A DNA stretch of 64,000 bases, taken from contig NZ_CP027706.1 of the NCBI RefSeq assembly GCF_003850565.1, forward strand, positions 5,084,001-5,148,000, written 5' to 3'. Shown one piece after another: positions 5,395 through 29,129 of the stretch. The notes under the pieces are model-generated. The model saw only the letters and a program-made list of their open reading frames with translations. It did not search any database and was not told the origin of the DNA. The position numbers and the translations under genes are program-made. Positions within the stretch are counted from its first letter, which is position 1. Every line of letters begins with the position of its first letter. Source of the DNA: Pseudomonas sessilinigenes (lineage in GTDB: Bacteria > Pseudomonadota > Gammaproteobacteria > Pseudomonadales > Pseudomonadaceae).

Positions 5395-5471
5395 GTAAAG
5401 GGTGGTGCCTGTAATTATTTCTTTCCCGGCAAGGCCTTGCGCAAGGCGCAAAGCCCCGCGCCACAGTGCTT

Positions 5472-7523
5472 TCAGAGGATCGCTGCGTTGCTGCGCTGGG
5501 CCTGCTTGAGGTAGGCCCCGAGCTCCCGTGCCGAGAGTGGTTTGCTGTAGTGATAGCCCTGACCTTCGTGGCAGCCCTCGCTGATGATGTAGGCCTCCTG
5601 CTCGGCTGTCTCCACGCCTTCGGCGATCACCTGCATGCCCAGGCTCTTACCCAGCTGGATGATCGCGCGCACGATGGTCGCATCGTCATCGTCCTCCAGC
5701 AGGTCCTGGACGAAGCTCTTGTCGATCTTGATCTTGTCCAGGGGCAGGCTCTTGAGGTAGCTGAGGGACGAATAGCCGGTGCCGAAGTCGTCGATGGCGA
5801 TCAGCGCTCCGGAGCGACGCAGGCTCAGCAGATGCTGGGCGGCGGTGCTGATGTCTTCCATCAGGCCGGTTTCGGTCACCTCCAGCTCCAGGCTACGTGG
5901 CGGCAGGCGATAGATCTGTAGCAGGTTGTTGACCACCCGTGGCAGTTCGGCGTGGTGCAACTGCACGGTGGACAGGTTGACCGCCATGCGCAGGTCACTG
6001 AAGCCCATGTCGTGCCATTCCCGCAGTTGGCGGCAGGCCTGGTCCAGTACCCATTCGCCGATAGCGATGATGGTGCCGTTCTGCTCGGCCAGCGGGATGA
6101 ACAGGTCCGGTGGCACCAGGCCGTGGTCCGGATGCTGCCAGCGCAGCAGTGCCTCGACCCCCACCACTCGATGGTCGCGATAGCTGATCTGCGGCTGGTA
6201 CACCAGGAAGAACTGTTCCCGGGCCAGGGCTTCGCGCAGGTCTTTCTCCAGCTCCCGGCGGCGCCGCATCTCGCTGTCGACGCTGGCGATGTAGAACTGA
6301 TAGCGATTGCGCGAGCGGCTCTTGGCCAGGGTCATGGTCTGCTCGGCTTTTTGCAGGAGCTTCTCGGTGCTGTCGCCATCTTCCGGGAACAGGGTGATGC
6401 CGATGGTGGCACGCAGGCGAATCTCCTGTTGGTCCAGGGCGAACGCCGCCTCCAGGTCGTCGAGGATGCTCTGCGCCAGCTCGGCGGCTTCGTAGGGCTG
6501 TTCGATGTCGGCCTGGACCAGGGCGAACTGATCGCCACCCAGGCGGGCCAGGGCTCCGAGGCGGCCGCTATGGCCACGCAGGCGATCGGCCAGGGCCAGC
6601 AACAACTGGTCGCCGGTCTGGTAGCTGAATTGCTCGTTCACGCCCTTGAAGTCATCCAGGCCGACGCACAGTACCGCGACCCGACGTTGCAGGCGCCCGG
6701 CATCCACCAGGATCTTGTCCAGTTGCTGCTGCAGTTGCTGGCGGTTGGGCAGGCCGGTAAGGAAGTCGTACTGGGCCATGCGCAGCAGGCTGTTCTCCGC
6801 TTCATGGCGCAGGTGGGTATTGCGCTCGATGGAGGCCAGCAACTGGTTGGCGGTGTTGATCCAGATCCCCAGCTCATTGCGTTCGTGGCCCTTGAGCAGG
6901 GGCAGTTGGTGTTCGCTGGGGCGATCGGGGTTGATGGTGGTCAGGTGCTCGATGATCCGCGACAGCGGCTTGGTCAGCAGCCAGTGATAGACCAGGTACA
7001 GCACCAGGCCCATGGCCAGGGCGCGCAGGACCCCGGAGACGAAAATGATCACCGAGCTGACGATGAAGTCCTGGCCATAGGTGGCGGTGTCCAGGGTGAT
7101 GCTCAGGTCGCCGTAATACTCGCTATAGGGGCCGCGTCCCACCAGTTGCGTGGTGAAGGTCCGCTCCTGGCCGAGGATCAGGTCGGTCAGCCAGCGGCTG
7201 GAGGACTTCTGCAGGTCGCGGGATTTTTCCGCGAGCATGGTTTCGTTGGGGTGGCCGATAGAGGCCATGCGCACGGCATCGTCCTGGAACAGGCCTTCGA
7301 TCACTTGCATCCCCATCTCCCGATCCAGGCTGTAGACCGCCTGGGTCGATGGGTCGCGAAACATGTCGAGTATGCGCTGGGCGTCGTTGGCTACCGCCTG
7401 CCGAGTCTTATAGGCATCGAAGACGATCTGGGCGCAGCTCAGGACCACGCCTACTATGAGTGCCGACAGCAGCACAACGCGGAGCAACTTCACCGACAAG
7501 CTGTTTTTGAGTTCCAGCTTCAA
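5472..7523 (-). CDS. bifA: Cyclic-di-GMP phosphodiesterase BifA (degenerate GGDEF + EAL)
   Basis: A 683-residue inner-membrane protein: membrane segment at about 13-35, periplasmic region, second membrane segment at about 154-183, a GGDEF domain, then an EAL domain. The GGDEF signature is GGDQF (329-333), so cyclase activity is unlikely. The EAL domain is intact: EAL at 457-459, ETGLM, DDFGTGYSS and EGVE. GGDQF-EAL plus location beside sodB and icmP are the features of BifA, which lowers c-di-GMP and affects biofilm and swarming. Start is TTG with AAGGA upstream. Confidence 0.88.
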   Translation of the reverse strand: MKLELKNSLSVKLLRVVLLSALIVGVVLSCAQIVFDAYKTRQAVANDAQRILDMFRDPSTQAVYSLDREMGMQVIEGLFQDDAVRMASIGHPNETMLAEKSRDLQKSSSRWLTDLILGQERTFTTQLVGRGPYSEYYGDLSITLDTATYGQDFIVSSVIIFVSGVLRALAMGLVLYLVYHWLLTKPLSRIIEHLTTINPDRPSEHQLPLLKGHERNELGIWINTANQLLASIERNTHLRHEAENSLLRMAQYDFLTGLPNRQQLQQQLDKILVDAGRLQRRVAVLCVGLDDFKGVNEQFSYQTGDQLLLALADRLRGHSGRLGALARLGGDQFALVQADIEQPYEAAELAQSILDDLEAAFALDQQEIRLRATIGITLFPEDGDSTEKLLQKAEQTMTLAKSRSRNRYQFYIASVDSEMRRRRELEKDLREALAREQFFLVYQPQISYRDHRVVGVEALLRWQHPDHGLVPPDLFIPLAEQNGTIIAIGEWVLDQACRQLREWHDMGFSDLRMAVNLSTVQLHHAELPRVVNNLLQIYRLPPRSLELEVTETGLMEDISTAAQHLLSLRRSGALIAIDDFGTGYSSLSYLKSLPLDKIKIDKSFVQDLLEDDDDATIVRAIIQLGKSLGMQVIAEGVETAEQEAYIISEGCHEGQGYHYSKPLSARELGAYLKQAQRSNAAIL

Positions 7524-25247: not shown

Positions 25248-25487
25248 ATGGCACGCAAAGAGTTCGCACACTACGAAGCCGTATCCGCTGTAGTTCCAGG
25301 AGAGGGGGGATACAGCGCCGCCATCGCCGTCAAGGCCCTTGGCGCTTCCGGGGCGCCGCGTTTTCACAAAGTCCTCGACGCTGAGACATTCAAGACCGCC
25401 CATGACGCCGACCAGGCTGCCGCGCAACAGCTGGAGCAGTTGATCGACGTCGACGCCGACGGTCAATTGTGCTGGAACGCTATCTGA
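25248..25487 (+). CDS. Small conserved-looking protein, unknown function
   Basis: A 79-residue soluble protein, MARKEFAHYEAVSAV..., with an AGGA at ten bases before the ATG; an ATG eleven codons earlier is also in frame. It carries no signal peptide or motif I recognise. The stop overlaps the convergent flavin-reductase gene by eight bases. Confidence 0.6.
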   Translation: MARKEFAHYEAVSAVVPGEGGYSAAIAVKALGASGAPRFHKVLDAETFKTAHDADQAAAQQLEQLIDVDADGQLCWNAI

Positions 25488-26109
25488 CCGCTCCCGGGCG
25501 GTACATCTTGAACAGGGCCTCTGGCCCCAGTTGGAAATAATCCGCCGGGCCGCCGCCGCGCAGAATGGGTTCTGCCGCGGCGGTGTCATAGATCCCGTCC
25601 TTGAGCAGCCACTTGGCGATATGCACGGCGACCACTTCGCCGAGGATCAGCCAGCTCGGCACCAGCTCCTTGTCCGCCCGTTGCAGCTGAATGATCTGGG
25701 TGACCTTGCATTCGAAGGACACCGGGCTTTCGGCTACCCGCGGTACGGCAATGACGTTCGAGGCCGCGGGCGTGAGGCCCGAGAGGGCGAATTCGTCGAT
25801 CTCGGGAGCCACCGCGGCGCAGCTCTGGTTCATCTGCTCGGCCAGGGGGCGGGTCGCCAGGTTCCAGGCGAATTCACCGGTCTGCTCGATGTTGTTCAGG
25901 CTGTCCTTACGCCCAACGCTGGAAAATCCGATGATCGGCGGGATGTAGTTGAAGGCGTTGAAGAAGCTGTAGGGCGCAAGGTTCAAGCGACCCTCGCTGT
26001 CCTGGGATGAGATCCAGCCAATGGGGCGCGGGCCGACGATGGCGTTGAACGGGTCATGGGGCAGACCGTGGCCCAGGGCGGGTTCGTAGTAGTGGATATC
26101 GTCGGGCAT
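25480..26109 (-). CDS. Flavin reductase-like protein (DIM6/NTAB family)
   Basis: A 209-residue flavin-binding split-barrel protein with the N-terminal PFNAIVGPRPIGWISSQDSEGRLNLAPYSFFNAF signature, which contacts FMN, and FECKV in the second barrel. Members reduce flavins with NAD(P)H or serve as flavoprotein partners. AGGAA lies about ten bases before the ATG. It is monocistronic by spacing. Confidence 0.85.
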   Translation of the reverse strand: MPDDIHYYEPALGHGLPHDPFNAIVGPRPIGWISSQDSEGRLNLAPYSFFNAFNYIPPIIGFSSVGRKDSLNNIEQTGEFAWNLATRPLAEQMNQSCAAVAPEIDEFALSGLTPAASNVIAVPRVAESPVSFECKVTQIIQLQRADKELVPSWLILGEVVAVHIAKWLLKDGIYDTAAAEPILRGGGPADYFQLGPEALFKMYRPGAVR

Positions 26110-26251: not shown

Positions 26252-26548
26252 TCAACCGATGTTGGCGGAACCGGTGCGGTCATAGCCATCGGCAGCGAAG
26301 GTGGCGGAACCGGTGCGGTCGTAGCCATCGGCAGCGAAGGTGGCGGAACCGGTGCGGTCGTAGCCATCGGCAGCGAAGGTGGCGGAACCGGTGCGATCGT
26401 AGCCATCGGCGGCGAAAGTGGCGGAACCAGTGCGGTCATAGCCATCGGCAGCGAAGGTGGCGGAACCGGTGCGGTCGTAGCCATCGGCGGCGAAAGTATT
26501 GGCAGCCAGTACCGACAGGGTCAGGGCAAGGATCAGTTTGCTTTTCAT
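26252..26548 (-). CDS. Secreted tandem-repeat peptide, six copies of a 13-residue unit
   Basis: A 98-residue protein: signal peptide MKSKLILALTLSVLAANTFA, then six copies of ADGYDRTGSATFA with the last ending ADGYDRTGSANIG. The predicted cleavage site TFA/ADG occurs again at each of the five unit junctions. No other domain is present. It has its own promoter region and no operon partner. Function unknown; I recall short D-G-Y-D-R-T-G proteins being common in Pseudomonas but not what they do. Real coding is supported by silent-only variation between the DNA copies. Confidence 0.85.
   Translation of the reverse strand: MKSKLILALTLSVLAANTFAADGYDRTGSATFAADGYDRTGSATFAADGYDRTGSATFAADGYDRTGSATFAADGYDRTGSATFAADGYDRTGSANIG
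26263..26496 (-). repeat. Six tandem 39-bp repeats inside the gene
   Basis: Unit starts are at 26263, 26302, 26341, 26380, 26419 and 26458. All units are 39 bases and differ only at third codon positions (for example TAT/TAC, GAC/GAT, ACC/ACT). There are no spacers, so this is not a CRISPR array. Confidence 0.95.
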
Positions 26549-26916
26549 GAGGGTGACTCCGATGGGGTGTTGGTGTTGGGCTTGAAGTGAATCCTACTCC
26601 GATGAAGTTGATTTAAAATCGCAAAAAAACACTAATAAAAATCAACTTAATCGATATGTTTTTCACCGTAGAACACCTGCACATAGGGATACAGCTTCCG
26701 GCCCAATAGGGCCCAGGTTTCACGCCAAGTCAGGTAGCAGGCTAAGTAACCAGCGTTAACTGATCGTTAATTGATCAATCGCCGGGTGAAAATGGCCCTT
26801 CAACGGTTTTTTCATTCAAGCCCTACCTATTTTTCACCCAAGGACGTTCAGCCTCCGCGCAGGCCTGCAAACCAAGACAGGCTGCCTTGAATGCGACCCT
26901 TGGAGCTCTCTCGTCA
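26549..26916. other. AT-rich divergent region with an inverted repeat
   Basis: About 368 bases, clearly richer in A and T than the rest of the window, between the tandem-repeat peptide gene (leftwards) and the four-repeat membrane protein gene (rightwards). It contains the inverted repeat listed separately and an ATTGATCAAT palindrome; no short gene is convincing. Confidence 0.5.
26601..26652. promoter_or_regulatory. Inverted repeat upstream of the tandem-repeat peptide gene
   Basis: GATGAAGTTGATTT and AAATCAACTTAATC pair at 13 of 14 positions across a 24-base A-rich spacer, 53-104 bases upstream of the peptide start. It could be a dimer-of-dimers operator or a loop-forming site; no regulator can be named. 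Confidence 0.4.
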
Positions 26917-27672
26917 ATGAACAAACTTCCCCAGATCACCCTGGCCTTCTGGGTCATGAAAATCTGCGCGACAACCCTGGGCGAAACCGCAGGTGACCTG
27001 CTGTCGATGACCCTCAACGTGGGGTACGCCATCAGTTCGATGATCCTGATCAGCGTGTTCCTGCTGACCCTGGTGACTCAGTTGTTTTCCAAGAGCTACA
27101 ACCCGGTGCTGTACTGGATCGTGATCCTGTCCACCAGCACGGCGGGTACCACCATGTCGGATTTCATGGATCGCACCCTGGGCTTGGGGTACGCCAGTGG
27201 TTCGTTGATCCTGATCGCTATCCTGGCGGCGATCTTCGCGGTCTGGCGCCTGAGTGGCGAATCGCTGAATGTGAACCGGGTCCAGGGTTTTCGTGGCGAG
27301 CTGTTCTATTGGCTGGCGATCCTGTTTTCCAACACCCTGGGCACCGCCCTGGGCGATTACCTGGCGGACGATTCCGGGCTGGGCTTCGCCGGTGGAGCGC
27401 TGTTGATCGGCTCGGCCATCGCTCTGGTCGTCGTCCTCAAGTACTGCACCAAGCTCTCGCCCGTGCTGCTGTTCTGGGTGGCCTTCGTGCTGACCCGGCC
27501 ATTTGGCGCGACCCTGGGCGACTTCCTGACCAAACCCCATGAAAAGGGTGGCCTGGACTTCGGTACGGTCGGCTCGTCGGCGGTGTTGGCGGGAATTCTG
27601 CTGGTGCTGATCGTCGGCGCTTGCTGGGCGCAGGGCCGTGATGCGCGTCAGGGAGCGGCGCAGTTGTCTTGA
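26917..27672 (+). CDS. Four-repeat integral membrane protein (COG4705-like)
   Basis: A 251-residue membrane protein with about eight hydrophobic segments arranged as four similar units, each having a T.G..(x)GD core: TTLGETAGD, TSTAGTTMSD, SNTLGTALGD and TRPFGATLGD. This is the pattern of the uncharacterised COG4705 membrane-anchored family. ATG start chosen with GGAG upstream over a TTG ten codons earlier. The conserved Asp/Thr in every repeat could line an ion path; that is speculation. Confidence 0.75.
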   Translation: MNKLPQITLAFWVMKICATTLGETAGDLLSMTLNVGYAISSMILISVFLLTLVTQLFSKSYNPVLYWIVILSTSTAGTTMSDFMDRTLGLGYASGSLILIAILAAIFAVWRLSGESLNVNRVQGFRGELFYWLAILFSNTLGTALGDYLADDSGLGFAGGALLIGSAIALVVVLKYCTKLSPVLLFWVAFVLTRPFGATLGDFLTKPHEKGGLDFGTVGSSAVLAGILLVLIVGACWAQGRDARQGAAQLS

Positions 27673-27747: not shown

Positions 27748-29070
27748 TCAGTCGGTTTCGATGCGCGAGTGCTTTCTGGTGTCTTTCATGGTCGCGTAGA
27801 CCAGCAGCGAGCAGGCGATACAGGCAGTGACGTACCAGTAGTAGCCGGTTTCCATGCCGATGCTCTTGAACCACAAGGCGATGTACTCCGCAGTACCACC
27901 GAATACCGATACCGTGAGTGCATAGGGCAGGCCTACGCCCAGGGCGCGGATCTCGGTAGGGAACAGCTCCGCCTTGACCACCGCGTTGATCGAGGTGTAG
28001 CCACTGACAATGATCAGGGCGGCCATGATCAGGAAGAACGCTCCCCACCAGGTCTGGATGGTATGCAAGGCGGTGAGGATCGGGACGGTAAACAGTGTGC
28101 CGAGGATCCCGAAGGCGATCAGGATCGGACGGCGGCCGATCTTGTCGGACAGCCCACCGATCACCGGTTGCAAGCACATGAACAGGAACAGGGTGGCTGC
28201 GGAAATGGTGGTGGAGTCGGAAATGCTCATGCCGACGGTGTTCACCAGGTATTTCTGCATGTAGGTGGTGTAGGTGTAGAAGGCCAGGGTGCCGCCCATG
28301 GTCAGGCCGACCACGGTCAGCAATTCCTTGGGATGGCGCATCAGGGTGCGCATCAGGCTTTCCTTGGGTTTCTCCTTCTTCTTGGCGAAGGATTCGGTCT
28401 CTTCCATGCCGCGCCGCAGGTACAGCGCTACGATGGCGCAGAGTGCGCCGATGCCGAAGGGAATCCGCCAGCCCCAGGACTGCAGCTCTTCGGTGGTCAA
28501 TACGTTCTGCAGGACAATCAGCACCGCCAGGGCGATGAGCTGGCCGGAGATCAGGGTGACGTACTGGAAGCTGGAGAAGAAACCACGGCGTTCCTTGGTC
28601 GCCATCTCGCTCAGGTAGGTGGCGGAGGTGCCATATTCTCCCCCTACCGACAGGCCCTGCATCAGGCGCGCCAGCACCAGCAGGATCGGAGCGCCGACGC
28701 CGATGGTCTCGTAGCCAGGGGTCAGGGCGATGATCAGGGAGCCTGCGCACATCAGCAGCACCGACGCCATCAACGCGGCCTTGCGTCCCTTGCGGTCGGC
28801 GTACAGGCCCATCAACCAGCCGCCGATCGGCCGCATCAGGAAACCTACGGCGAAGATCGCGGCAGTATTGAGCAACTGCGCGGTGGTATCGCCCTTGGGG
28901 AAGAAGACTTTAGCGAAGTACAACGAGAATGCGGCGTAGACGTACCAGTCGTACCACTCGACCATGTTGCCGACCGAACCGCTGAAAATCGATTTCAGGC
29001 GGCTGGCGGTGGTCTTTTCCTGGGCAGGCGCGGCGGCCGACCCGGCAGGCAGGGTATTGGAGATTTCCAT
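27748..29070 (-). CDS. kgtP: MFS 2-oxoglutarate (C5-dicarboxylate) permease, KgtP type
   Basis: A 440-residue inner-membrane proton symporter of the metabolite:H+ group: GNMVEWYDWYVYAAFSLYFAKVFFP in helix 1, motif A GLYADRKGRKAALM, RLMQGLSVGGEYGTSATYL and SDKIGRRP mid-protein. About twelve helices. ATG chosen with AAGG upstream; an ATG six codons earlier lacks one. MifS/MifR-type genes lie immediately upstream on the same strand, and in P. aeruginosa that pair drives 2-oxoglutarate uptake through a homologous permease. A consensus-like sigma-54 promoter lies 60 bases upstream. Confidence 0.85.
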   Translation of the reverse strand: MEISNTLPAGSAAAPAQEKTTASRLKSIFSGSVGNMVEWYDWYVYAAFSLYFAKVFFPKGDTTAQLLNTAAIFAVGFLMRPIGGWLMGLYADRKGRKAALMASVLLMCAGSLIIALTPGYETIGVGAPILLVLARLMQGLSVGGEYGTSATYLSEMATKERRGFFSSFQYVTLISGQLIALAVLIVLQNVLTTEELQSWGWRIPFGIGALCAIVALYLRRGMEETESFAKKKEKPKESLMRTLMRHPKELLTVVGLTMGGTLAFYTYTTYMQKYLVNTVGMSISDSTTISAATLFLFMCLQPVIGGLSDKIGRRPILIAFGILGTLFTVPILTALHTIQTWWGAFFLIMAALIIVSGYTSINAVVKAELFPTEIRALGVGLPYALTVSVFGGTAEYIALWFKSIGMETGYYWYVTACIACSLLVYATMKDTRKHSRIETD

Positions 29071-29129
29071 CACGAACCTTCTATTCATTGTTGTTGTGGA
29101 GTGCGCGCAAACGCAGCCTGCCAGGGCTA

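Follow-up and report, generated by a model that had tools for sequence, protein, structure and literature searches.

A six-unit repeat gene of Pseudomonas sessilinigenes is best explained as one site of a multi-copy Pseudomonadaceae family of exported proteins with a putative LysR-type upstream box

Short tandem repeats are carried by several kinds of exported protein, among them the RTX nonapeptide proteins, the CsgA/FapC amyloids and the alpha-factor-type precursors. The units of all of these differ from the units of the family we describe here. PA4881 of P. aeruginosa is described as encoding a tandem repeat protein under MexT (PMC3557286). Table 1 of a study of a mexT deletion has it among the most reduced genes, at -6.5 log2, and PA4881, PA3229, PA1942 and PA4623 there span -6.5 to -5.8 log2, or ~55- to 90-fold lower (PMC12607905). 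In that source, some of the P. aeruginosa genes most dependent on MexT are known by number alone (PMC12607905). The published MexT consensus is ATCA(N)7CGAT (PMC11144800). PtrA (PA2808) is described as a periplasmic protein involved in copper tolerance (PMC7744410, PMC8872213). It is under CopR and CzcR, with published sites CTGACA-N5-GTAAT for CopR and GAAAC-N6-GTAAT for CzcR (PMC11195947, PMC13209446).

The window is the whole stretch of DNA that we analysed, 64,000 nucleotides long, in which a first-pass annotation had noticed a secreted peptide made of six copies of its own signal-peptide junction. The gene lies on the minus strand at 26252..26548 and encodes 98 amino acids from an ATG at 26548, as read from the sequence and the list of open reading frames. 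Residues 1-20 (26489..26548, minus) are a Sec-type signal peptide, MKSKLILALTLSVLAANTFA, in which F19 and A20 are invariant in alignment A1. We expect cleavage after Ala20, judging by eye from the -3/-1 rule for signal-peptide cleavage. The units follow on the same minus strand. Unit 1 (26450..26488) reads ADGYDRTGSATFA, as do unit 2 (26411..26449), with 4 synonymous differences from unit 1, and unit 3 (26372..26410), with 1. Units 4 (26333..26371) and 5 (26294..26332) are identical to unit 1 in their DNA, and unit 6 (26255..26293) is ADGYDRTGSANIG, its final 3 residues changed. Tandem Repeats Finder reports a period of 39, 5.9 copies, 93% matches and a score of 415, and the four remaining arrays in the window score 45-62. 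The open reading frame, the signal peptide and the six 13-residue units are therefore real. The earlier statement that every difference between units is synonymous is true of units 1-5, which encode one 13-residue peptide and differ in their DNA at five third positions, all synonymous; it is not true of unit 6, which ends NIG and not TFA, each of its final three codons specifying a different residue. The same annotation was right that the site TFA|ADG recurs at each unit junction, for we find it six times, once between the signal peptide and unit 1 and at the five junctions between units.

Each unit of the window protein has two Asp, and the mature protein, about 78 residues, has no His, Cys or Met. 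A folded domain is rejected on the basis of two AlphaFold2 runs, with mean pLDDT 38 and 35.6, in which the signal helix alone was predicted. The best explanation is a Sec-exported, acidic, intrinsically disordered tandem-repeat protein. All of its Pfam matches lie below the cut-off, and a search of solved structures returned nothing at E <0.01, the best being 0.013. Some matches of its relatives, PF25213 (6.8e-7, 1/14) and PF20844 (3.2e-5, 2/14) in Pfam and TIGR03620 in NCBIfam, the last below the cut-off, were taken as repeat artefacts.

The window protein finds matches in 362 of the 398 genomes of its own genus. A profile built from 14 diverse members reaches 80 of 148 family-level genomes and 10 of 19 genera; a profile of the window's subfamily reaches 50 of the 148 genomes and 8 of the 19 genera, and at the level of the order it matches 5 of 244 genomes, all 5 from the window's genus. 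A restriction of the family to the window's genus is rejected by those 8 genera, and one member from genus g3 (L262) even shares the abutting signal peptide discussed below. We believe the gene is best explained as one site of a multi-copy Pseudomonadaceae family whose unit is x-[DG]-G-x-D-[RHK]-[TVL]-x4-hydrophobic-A. A member of this family has a Sec-type signal peptide and at least three units, and the window protein has six. Four genomes hold 12 to 22 matched places each, some of which are several stretches of one gene, and there are about eight separate family loci in G128 and about nine in G156. The units of paralogs are related (ADGADHVGAGAVA, ADGSDRTPQGQTLA, EGGADRLLERRVA, ADGSDRLQGNTVA), and their lengths and sequences vary widely. 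In the window's own genome a single clear paralog, at 676 kb, combines ADGYDRT with EGGxDRL units. The family is wide and little described: its peptide strings found no literature match, and no title on it appeared among the matches listed from the literature on small secreted and repeat proteins.

Three origins or roles of another kind were also considered and rejected. A phage origin found no phage match, and a plasmid origin found 1 match among 72,556 plasmids, the same plasmid being returned with two other members as queries. Two cyanobacterial NB-ARC matches in the plasmid search look like chance. Anti-phage defence was represented by one PADLOC match, at E 0.083.

The chromosomal setting was compared in the best 80 of 161 confirmed loci, so this named sample leans to the window's subfamily. 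Six clusters of window neighbours were used: an MFS symporter, a 90-aa ORF, an ABM monooxygenase, an AraC-type regulator, a sigma-54-type response regulator and a sensor kinase. At least two of them are shared by 57 of the 80 loci, which we call site A, and the other 23 make up a second site, site B. These are counts of loci; after deduplication they correspond to 39 and 20 members. An intact family ORF is present at 57/57 site-A and 21/23 site-B loci, and the two exceptions (L058, L093) sit at contig ends. The first-pass annotation had proposed that non-synonymous drift or frameshifts in close relatives would speak against a selected peptide; 78 of the 80 named loci keep an intact ORF, so the proposal passes this check unrefuted. 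The window gene is flanked by a flavin-reductase-like gene (25480..26109, minus; PF01613), with members of its cluster at 58 of 81 loci, the window among them, by a divergent gene for a DUF347 membrane protein (26887..27672, plus; PF03988; 22/81 on the same count), and by a gene for an MFS metabolite/H+ symporter (27748..29088, minus; NF007710, PF00083; 57/81). Site B has genes for a DUF2790 protein and for the small chain of a ribonucleotide reductase as neighbours (5410-5670 and 6789-8096 in L039).

The main new fact of this work is a conserved upstream element that appears to be of the LysR/MexT type. Reading upstream from the ATG on the minus strand, the window gene has a ribosome-binding-site-like GGAG (26557..26560), and GGAG or something similar precedes the ATG in most relatives viewed. 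Next are a -10-like hexamer, TAGGAT (26591..26596), within a conserved G[CA]GTA[AG]NAT block, and a segment conserved in the upstream alignments between the box and the -10, TTTGCGATTTTAAATCAA (26608..26625). The sole perfect match to TTTGCGNTTTTNAATCAA in the own genome is this last segment, and a scan of that genome for the T-rich segment with up to 3 mismatches gave 17 hits against 9 in the control. The box itself, ATCGATTAAGTTGAT, is a putative LysR-type site of the form ATC-N8-TGAT (26641..26655), its start 107 nt upstream of the ATG and 59 nt upstream of the -10-like hexamer. Most upstream classes align at an LTTR-type palindrome, ATC[GA]A-N5-T[CT]GAT, about 59 nt before the -10-like block.

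The box was counted in 113 distinct proteins, identical ones counted once, drawn from loci in the window's genus and from records whose title names Pseudomonas. At a distance of 95-125 nt upstream of the ATG, 101 of these 113 have ATC-N8-[CT]GAT, a pattern derived from the same sequences, against 0.66% of 2260 resampled upstreams, and the window box is among the 101. Outside the genus we used 27 of 29 loci found at E <=0.001; L232 and L233 were excluded for a match that starts inside the gene, and in both of them ATCA-N7-CGAT stands 98 nt upstream of the ATG. The pattern is present in 22/27, against 1.1% of resampled DNA. It is important to realize that these 27 include mutual orthologs (L227-L231; L208, L209), so they are not independent. 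A later set from other genera held 17 genes, 5 of them shared with the 27, and among the 12 further members 11 have the pattern. The generic box is lacking in 12/113 and in 5/27. That a LysR-type box is shared across the family is, on these upstream comparisons, a well supported reading.

Scored for the published MexT consensus, 17 of the 27 other-genus members have an exact ATCA(N)7CGAT some 110 nt upstream of the ATG, against 0.2% of resampled DNA. It is exact in 4 of the 12 further members, a lower rate, and in 14 of the 94 members whose signal peptide abuts the first unit. The window box differs from it at two positions, and this is where the window departs from the MexT regulon, so its regulator is best called LysR-type. 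MexT or a relative of MexT is a candidate. Another LysR-type regulator may act on the window gene instead, since the exact MexT box is found in so few of the abutting and of the later members.

We also searched with ATCA-N5-GTCGAT-N4-ACYAT, which we take to be a longer MexT-type box. Allowing R for G at one place, a relaxation made after the sequences had been viewed, it is present in 14/27 other-genus members and in 0% of resampled DNA. In 4/4 genomes scanned a single exact copy precedes a family member; these genomes were chosen because an exact copy was already known there, and the new result is that they hold no other. Copies with one mismatch number 9 in the four genomes and 1 in the reversed control. 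They precede a glutathione S-transferase gene in 2/2 genus-g3 genomes (L253, L259; the L253 copy overlaps the end of the upstream ORF), an ArsR-type regulator gene in the remaining two genomes (L254, L255) and an OprD-type porin gene, and four more fall within or close to other reading frames. The glutathione S-transferase and ArsR-type copies are 98-133 nt before their genes, which suggests that these genes may be further members of the same regulon. In the window's own genome, up to 2 mismatches give 32 hits against 3 in the control, promoter and coding positions mixed. One of these hits that was examined, at 676588, belongs to the paralog.

In two respects this resembles what has been described in P. 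aeruginosa. PA4881 is described as a tandem repeat gene under MexT, and the 17 other-genus repeat genes have the MexT consensus upstream; the MexT regulon, mexEF-oprN together with small unknown genes, is echoed by those same boxes and by the glutathione S-transferase, ArsR-type and OprD-type copies. We infer that PA4881 is homologous to the repeat family. If it does belong, the anatomy, the unit consensus and the box would tie genes known by number alone to a family that extends across the Pseudomonadaceae, and function would become testable through the inducing stress, the ligand of the unit and unit number as a dial. Another gene, AL066_13550 of P. fluorescens In5, was considered as a possible member and set aside. 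It is annotated as a 'phage infection protein' and is reported 32-fold up together with azoreductase and YqjG-type genes (PMC5557065).

We believe the most probable account, at a probability of about 0.5, is that the window gene encodes an exported disordered repeat protein, induced by a MexT-like LysR-type regulator under redox or electrophile stress, that serves as a buffer or scavenger in the periplasm. The gene, its repeats, their selection, the spread of the family and the box were computed; to these the account joins three elements that we infer, namely a MexT-like regulator acting on the window copy, the periplasmic location and the buffering. Under this account the gene would be activated through its LysR-type box, which stands some 110 nt ahead of the ATG. 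Since the box is the kind of site that MexT uses, expression would be expected under redox or electrophile stress, with synthesis during exposure to, for example, an aldehyde, a quinone or a disulfide. The mature protein would most likely remain in the periplasm, where it would buffer or scavenge in soluble form, with one weak site per unit and a capacity set by unit number. Its distant relative PtrA is likewise described as a protein of the periplasm, there in copper tolerance (PMC7744410, PMC8872213). Most family genes checked have a site like that of a stress regulator, which suggests a possible role for the family in envelope stress.

A different use of a disordered repeat would be structural: a spacer, a matrix or an adhesin-like filament at the surface. 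Unit number varies from 4 to 13 at one orthologous site, site A, and low complexity joined to an export signal is what such a protein might look like. Against this, the roughly 78 mature residues lack Cys and show nothing that would obviously anchor them to membrane or wall, and the relatives match adhesin and RTX models weakly (PavB 0.012, BafA 0.04; RTX in 2 of 14 relatives, best E 0.028). The promoter is of the stress type. We consider a structural or surface role unlikely.

Binding or storage of a metal as the main role, in the manner of PtrA, is just as improbable in our judgement. In this scenario the metal would induce the gene at site A through a further upstream element, a TTAAC-N6-TTAAC direct repeat (26755..26770, minus) that looks like a response-regulator site. 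The repeat is site-specific: TTAA[TC]-N6-TTAA[TC] occurs upstream of 39/39 site-A members, 0/20 site-B members and 29/54 members with no site assigned. It resembles the sites of OmpR-family response regulators, and the published control of PtrA by CopR and CzcR would fit an element of that kind. However, it differs from the published CopR and CzcR sites, and its absence from site B also argues against the idea. The family and PtrA are alike in being small exported Pseudomonas proteins, PtrA corresponding to about one unit. NF041599, the model of the PtrA N-terminal domain, has 46 profile positions that hold about one repeat unit, with the stretch from about position 19 to 31 aligning with single paralog units. 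Ten relatives were scanned singly against it; three pass its cut-off of 31 bits (L160 at 89.9, L146 at 74.8, L137 at 44.8), L139, L227 and the own-genome paralog L002 (23.0) score below it, and L163, L165, L170 and L132 have no match. The window protein matches 0 NCBIfam families at E up to 10 and has no match to NF041599. It further differs from PtrA in having six units and an upstream site of the LysR type rather than the CopR/CzcR type. The two Asp in each unit could bind a metal, but the mature protein has none of the His, Cys or Met residues that would make this role easier to accept.

The junction between units raises the question of whether the protein is a precursor, cut by a protease at hydrophobic-Ala|[AES]-[DG]-G after export to release 13-mers that act as a signal or a bait. 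The data on this come from a table that excludes units longer than 16 residues, and the position counts take 13-mers only. The junction is as conserved as the core: position 12 is hydrophobic (V, F, L or I) in 537/537 units and position 13 is Ala in 529/537. These two positions played no part in picking units, while the selecting pattern partly fixes positions 2, 3, 5, 6 and 7. The protein as a whole ends in Ser in 89/113 members and in Ala in 8/113, so Ala is retained at a junction when another unit comes next. This would allow a constraint that acts on the junction itself, for example proteolysis. On the other hand, 139 of the 537 units have Lys or Arg at -3, which makes signal peptidase I unlikely as the general cutter, and we reject its cutting at every junction as a general rule. 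The internal junctions are not preceded by a hydrophobic h-region, and the wide differences in unit length and sequence among paralogs also speak against a precursor. We regard the precursor scenario as quite unlikely.

The first-pass annotation went further and argued that the repeat grew from the cleavage junction itself. The signal peptide abuts unit 1 in 94/113 members, and a linker of at least 4 residues separates them in the other 19/113 and, by eye over the first 60 residues, in 27/27 members from other genera. In those linker-bearing members viewed at length, a hydrophobic residue and Ala before x-[DGN]-G still recur between units. The junction motif is thus kept despite the linker, which leaves an origin of the repeat in the cleavage site unsupported. 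Among the 17 other-genus genes of the later set, of which 5 also belong to the 27, the abutting form is found once. Since abutment is common in the window's genus and so rare elsewhere, it looks like the derived form, though the reverse order may hold. The one case is L262 (G752, genus g3), which has the box ATCGAATAGATCGAT 112 nt before its ATG and is possibly acquired, or possibly an older form.

The repeat units are under purifying selection. The ratio pN/pS is 0.197 when the units are compared within genes (537 thirteen-residue units, 113 distinct members), falling to about 0.01 at positions 2 and 13, and position 3 shows no amino-acid change at all. The proposal of an exported, repetitive and selected peptide therefore stands, and the relatives are its best evidence. 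In the window alone, five synonymous differences out of five among units 1-5 have a neutral p of about 0.0014-0.0025 if the changes are independent. However, in a sample of ten genes, units differ at a mean of 3.0 places within a gene and 4.8 between genes, and the nearest unit is in the same gene for 33/77, in another gene for 22/77 and tied for 22/77. The units thus owe part of their likeness to recent duplication or conversion, which weakens the five-of-five argument. Neutral or selfish repeat expansion without a function could draw on this within-gene likeness and on the changes in tandem unit number, but it is very improbable given the ratio above, the near-invariant D2, G3 and A13 (positions 2 and 3 being partly fixed by the pattern), the conserved promoter element and an intact ORF in 78/78 uncut named loci.

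A bolder form of our preferred reading, the induced periplasmic buffer, is doubtful enough that we offer it as speculation. The Pseudomonadaceae could hold a multi-copy class, so far unrecognised, of exported repeat proteins that serve as the dedicated output of a LysR-type electrophile sensor. These would be strings of one weak binding or scavenging unit, of which PtrA has about one, with a capacity tuned through selected gain and loss of units and with controlled proteolytic turnover to 13-mers as the reason for the retained junction Ala. The family offers a natural system for the study of selected tandem-repeat copy number in bacteria.

Several smaller observations concern how family genes are arranged and how far they diverge. 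The own-genome paralog (L002; G000 contig C1 675960-676502) is built of ADGYDRTPQGQ and EGGxDRL units and has the box ATCAATTCTGTTGAT. L136, L141 and L142, of 319, 257 and 241 aa, consist of near-identical ADGADHVGAGAVA or ADGADKVGANKLA units and share a C-terminal tail, SDRVAS...YSDQFN; their upstreams fail to align with those of other members, and they form a separate branch. Genome G028 has three consecutive family genes (L164), whose repeats are composite and whose upstreams are nearly the same. Four genus-g3 genomes each have two different family genes a short distance apart (L228/L235, L229/L234, L230/L237 and L231/L236), and both genes of each pair have ATC-N8-[CT]GAT upstream.
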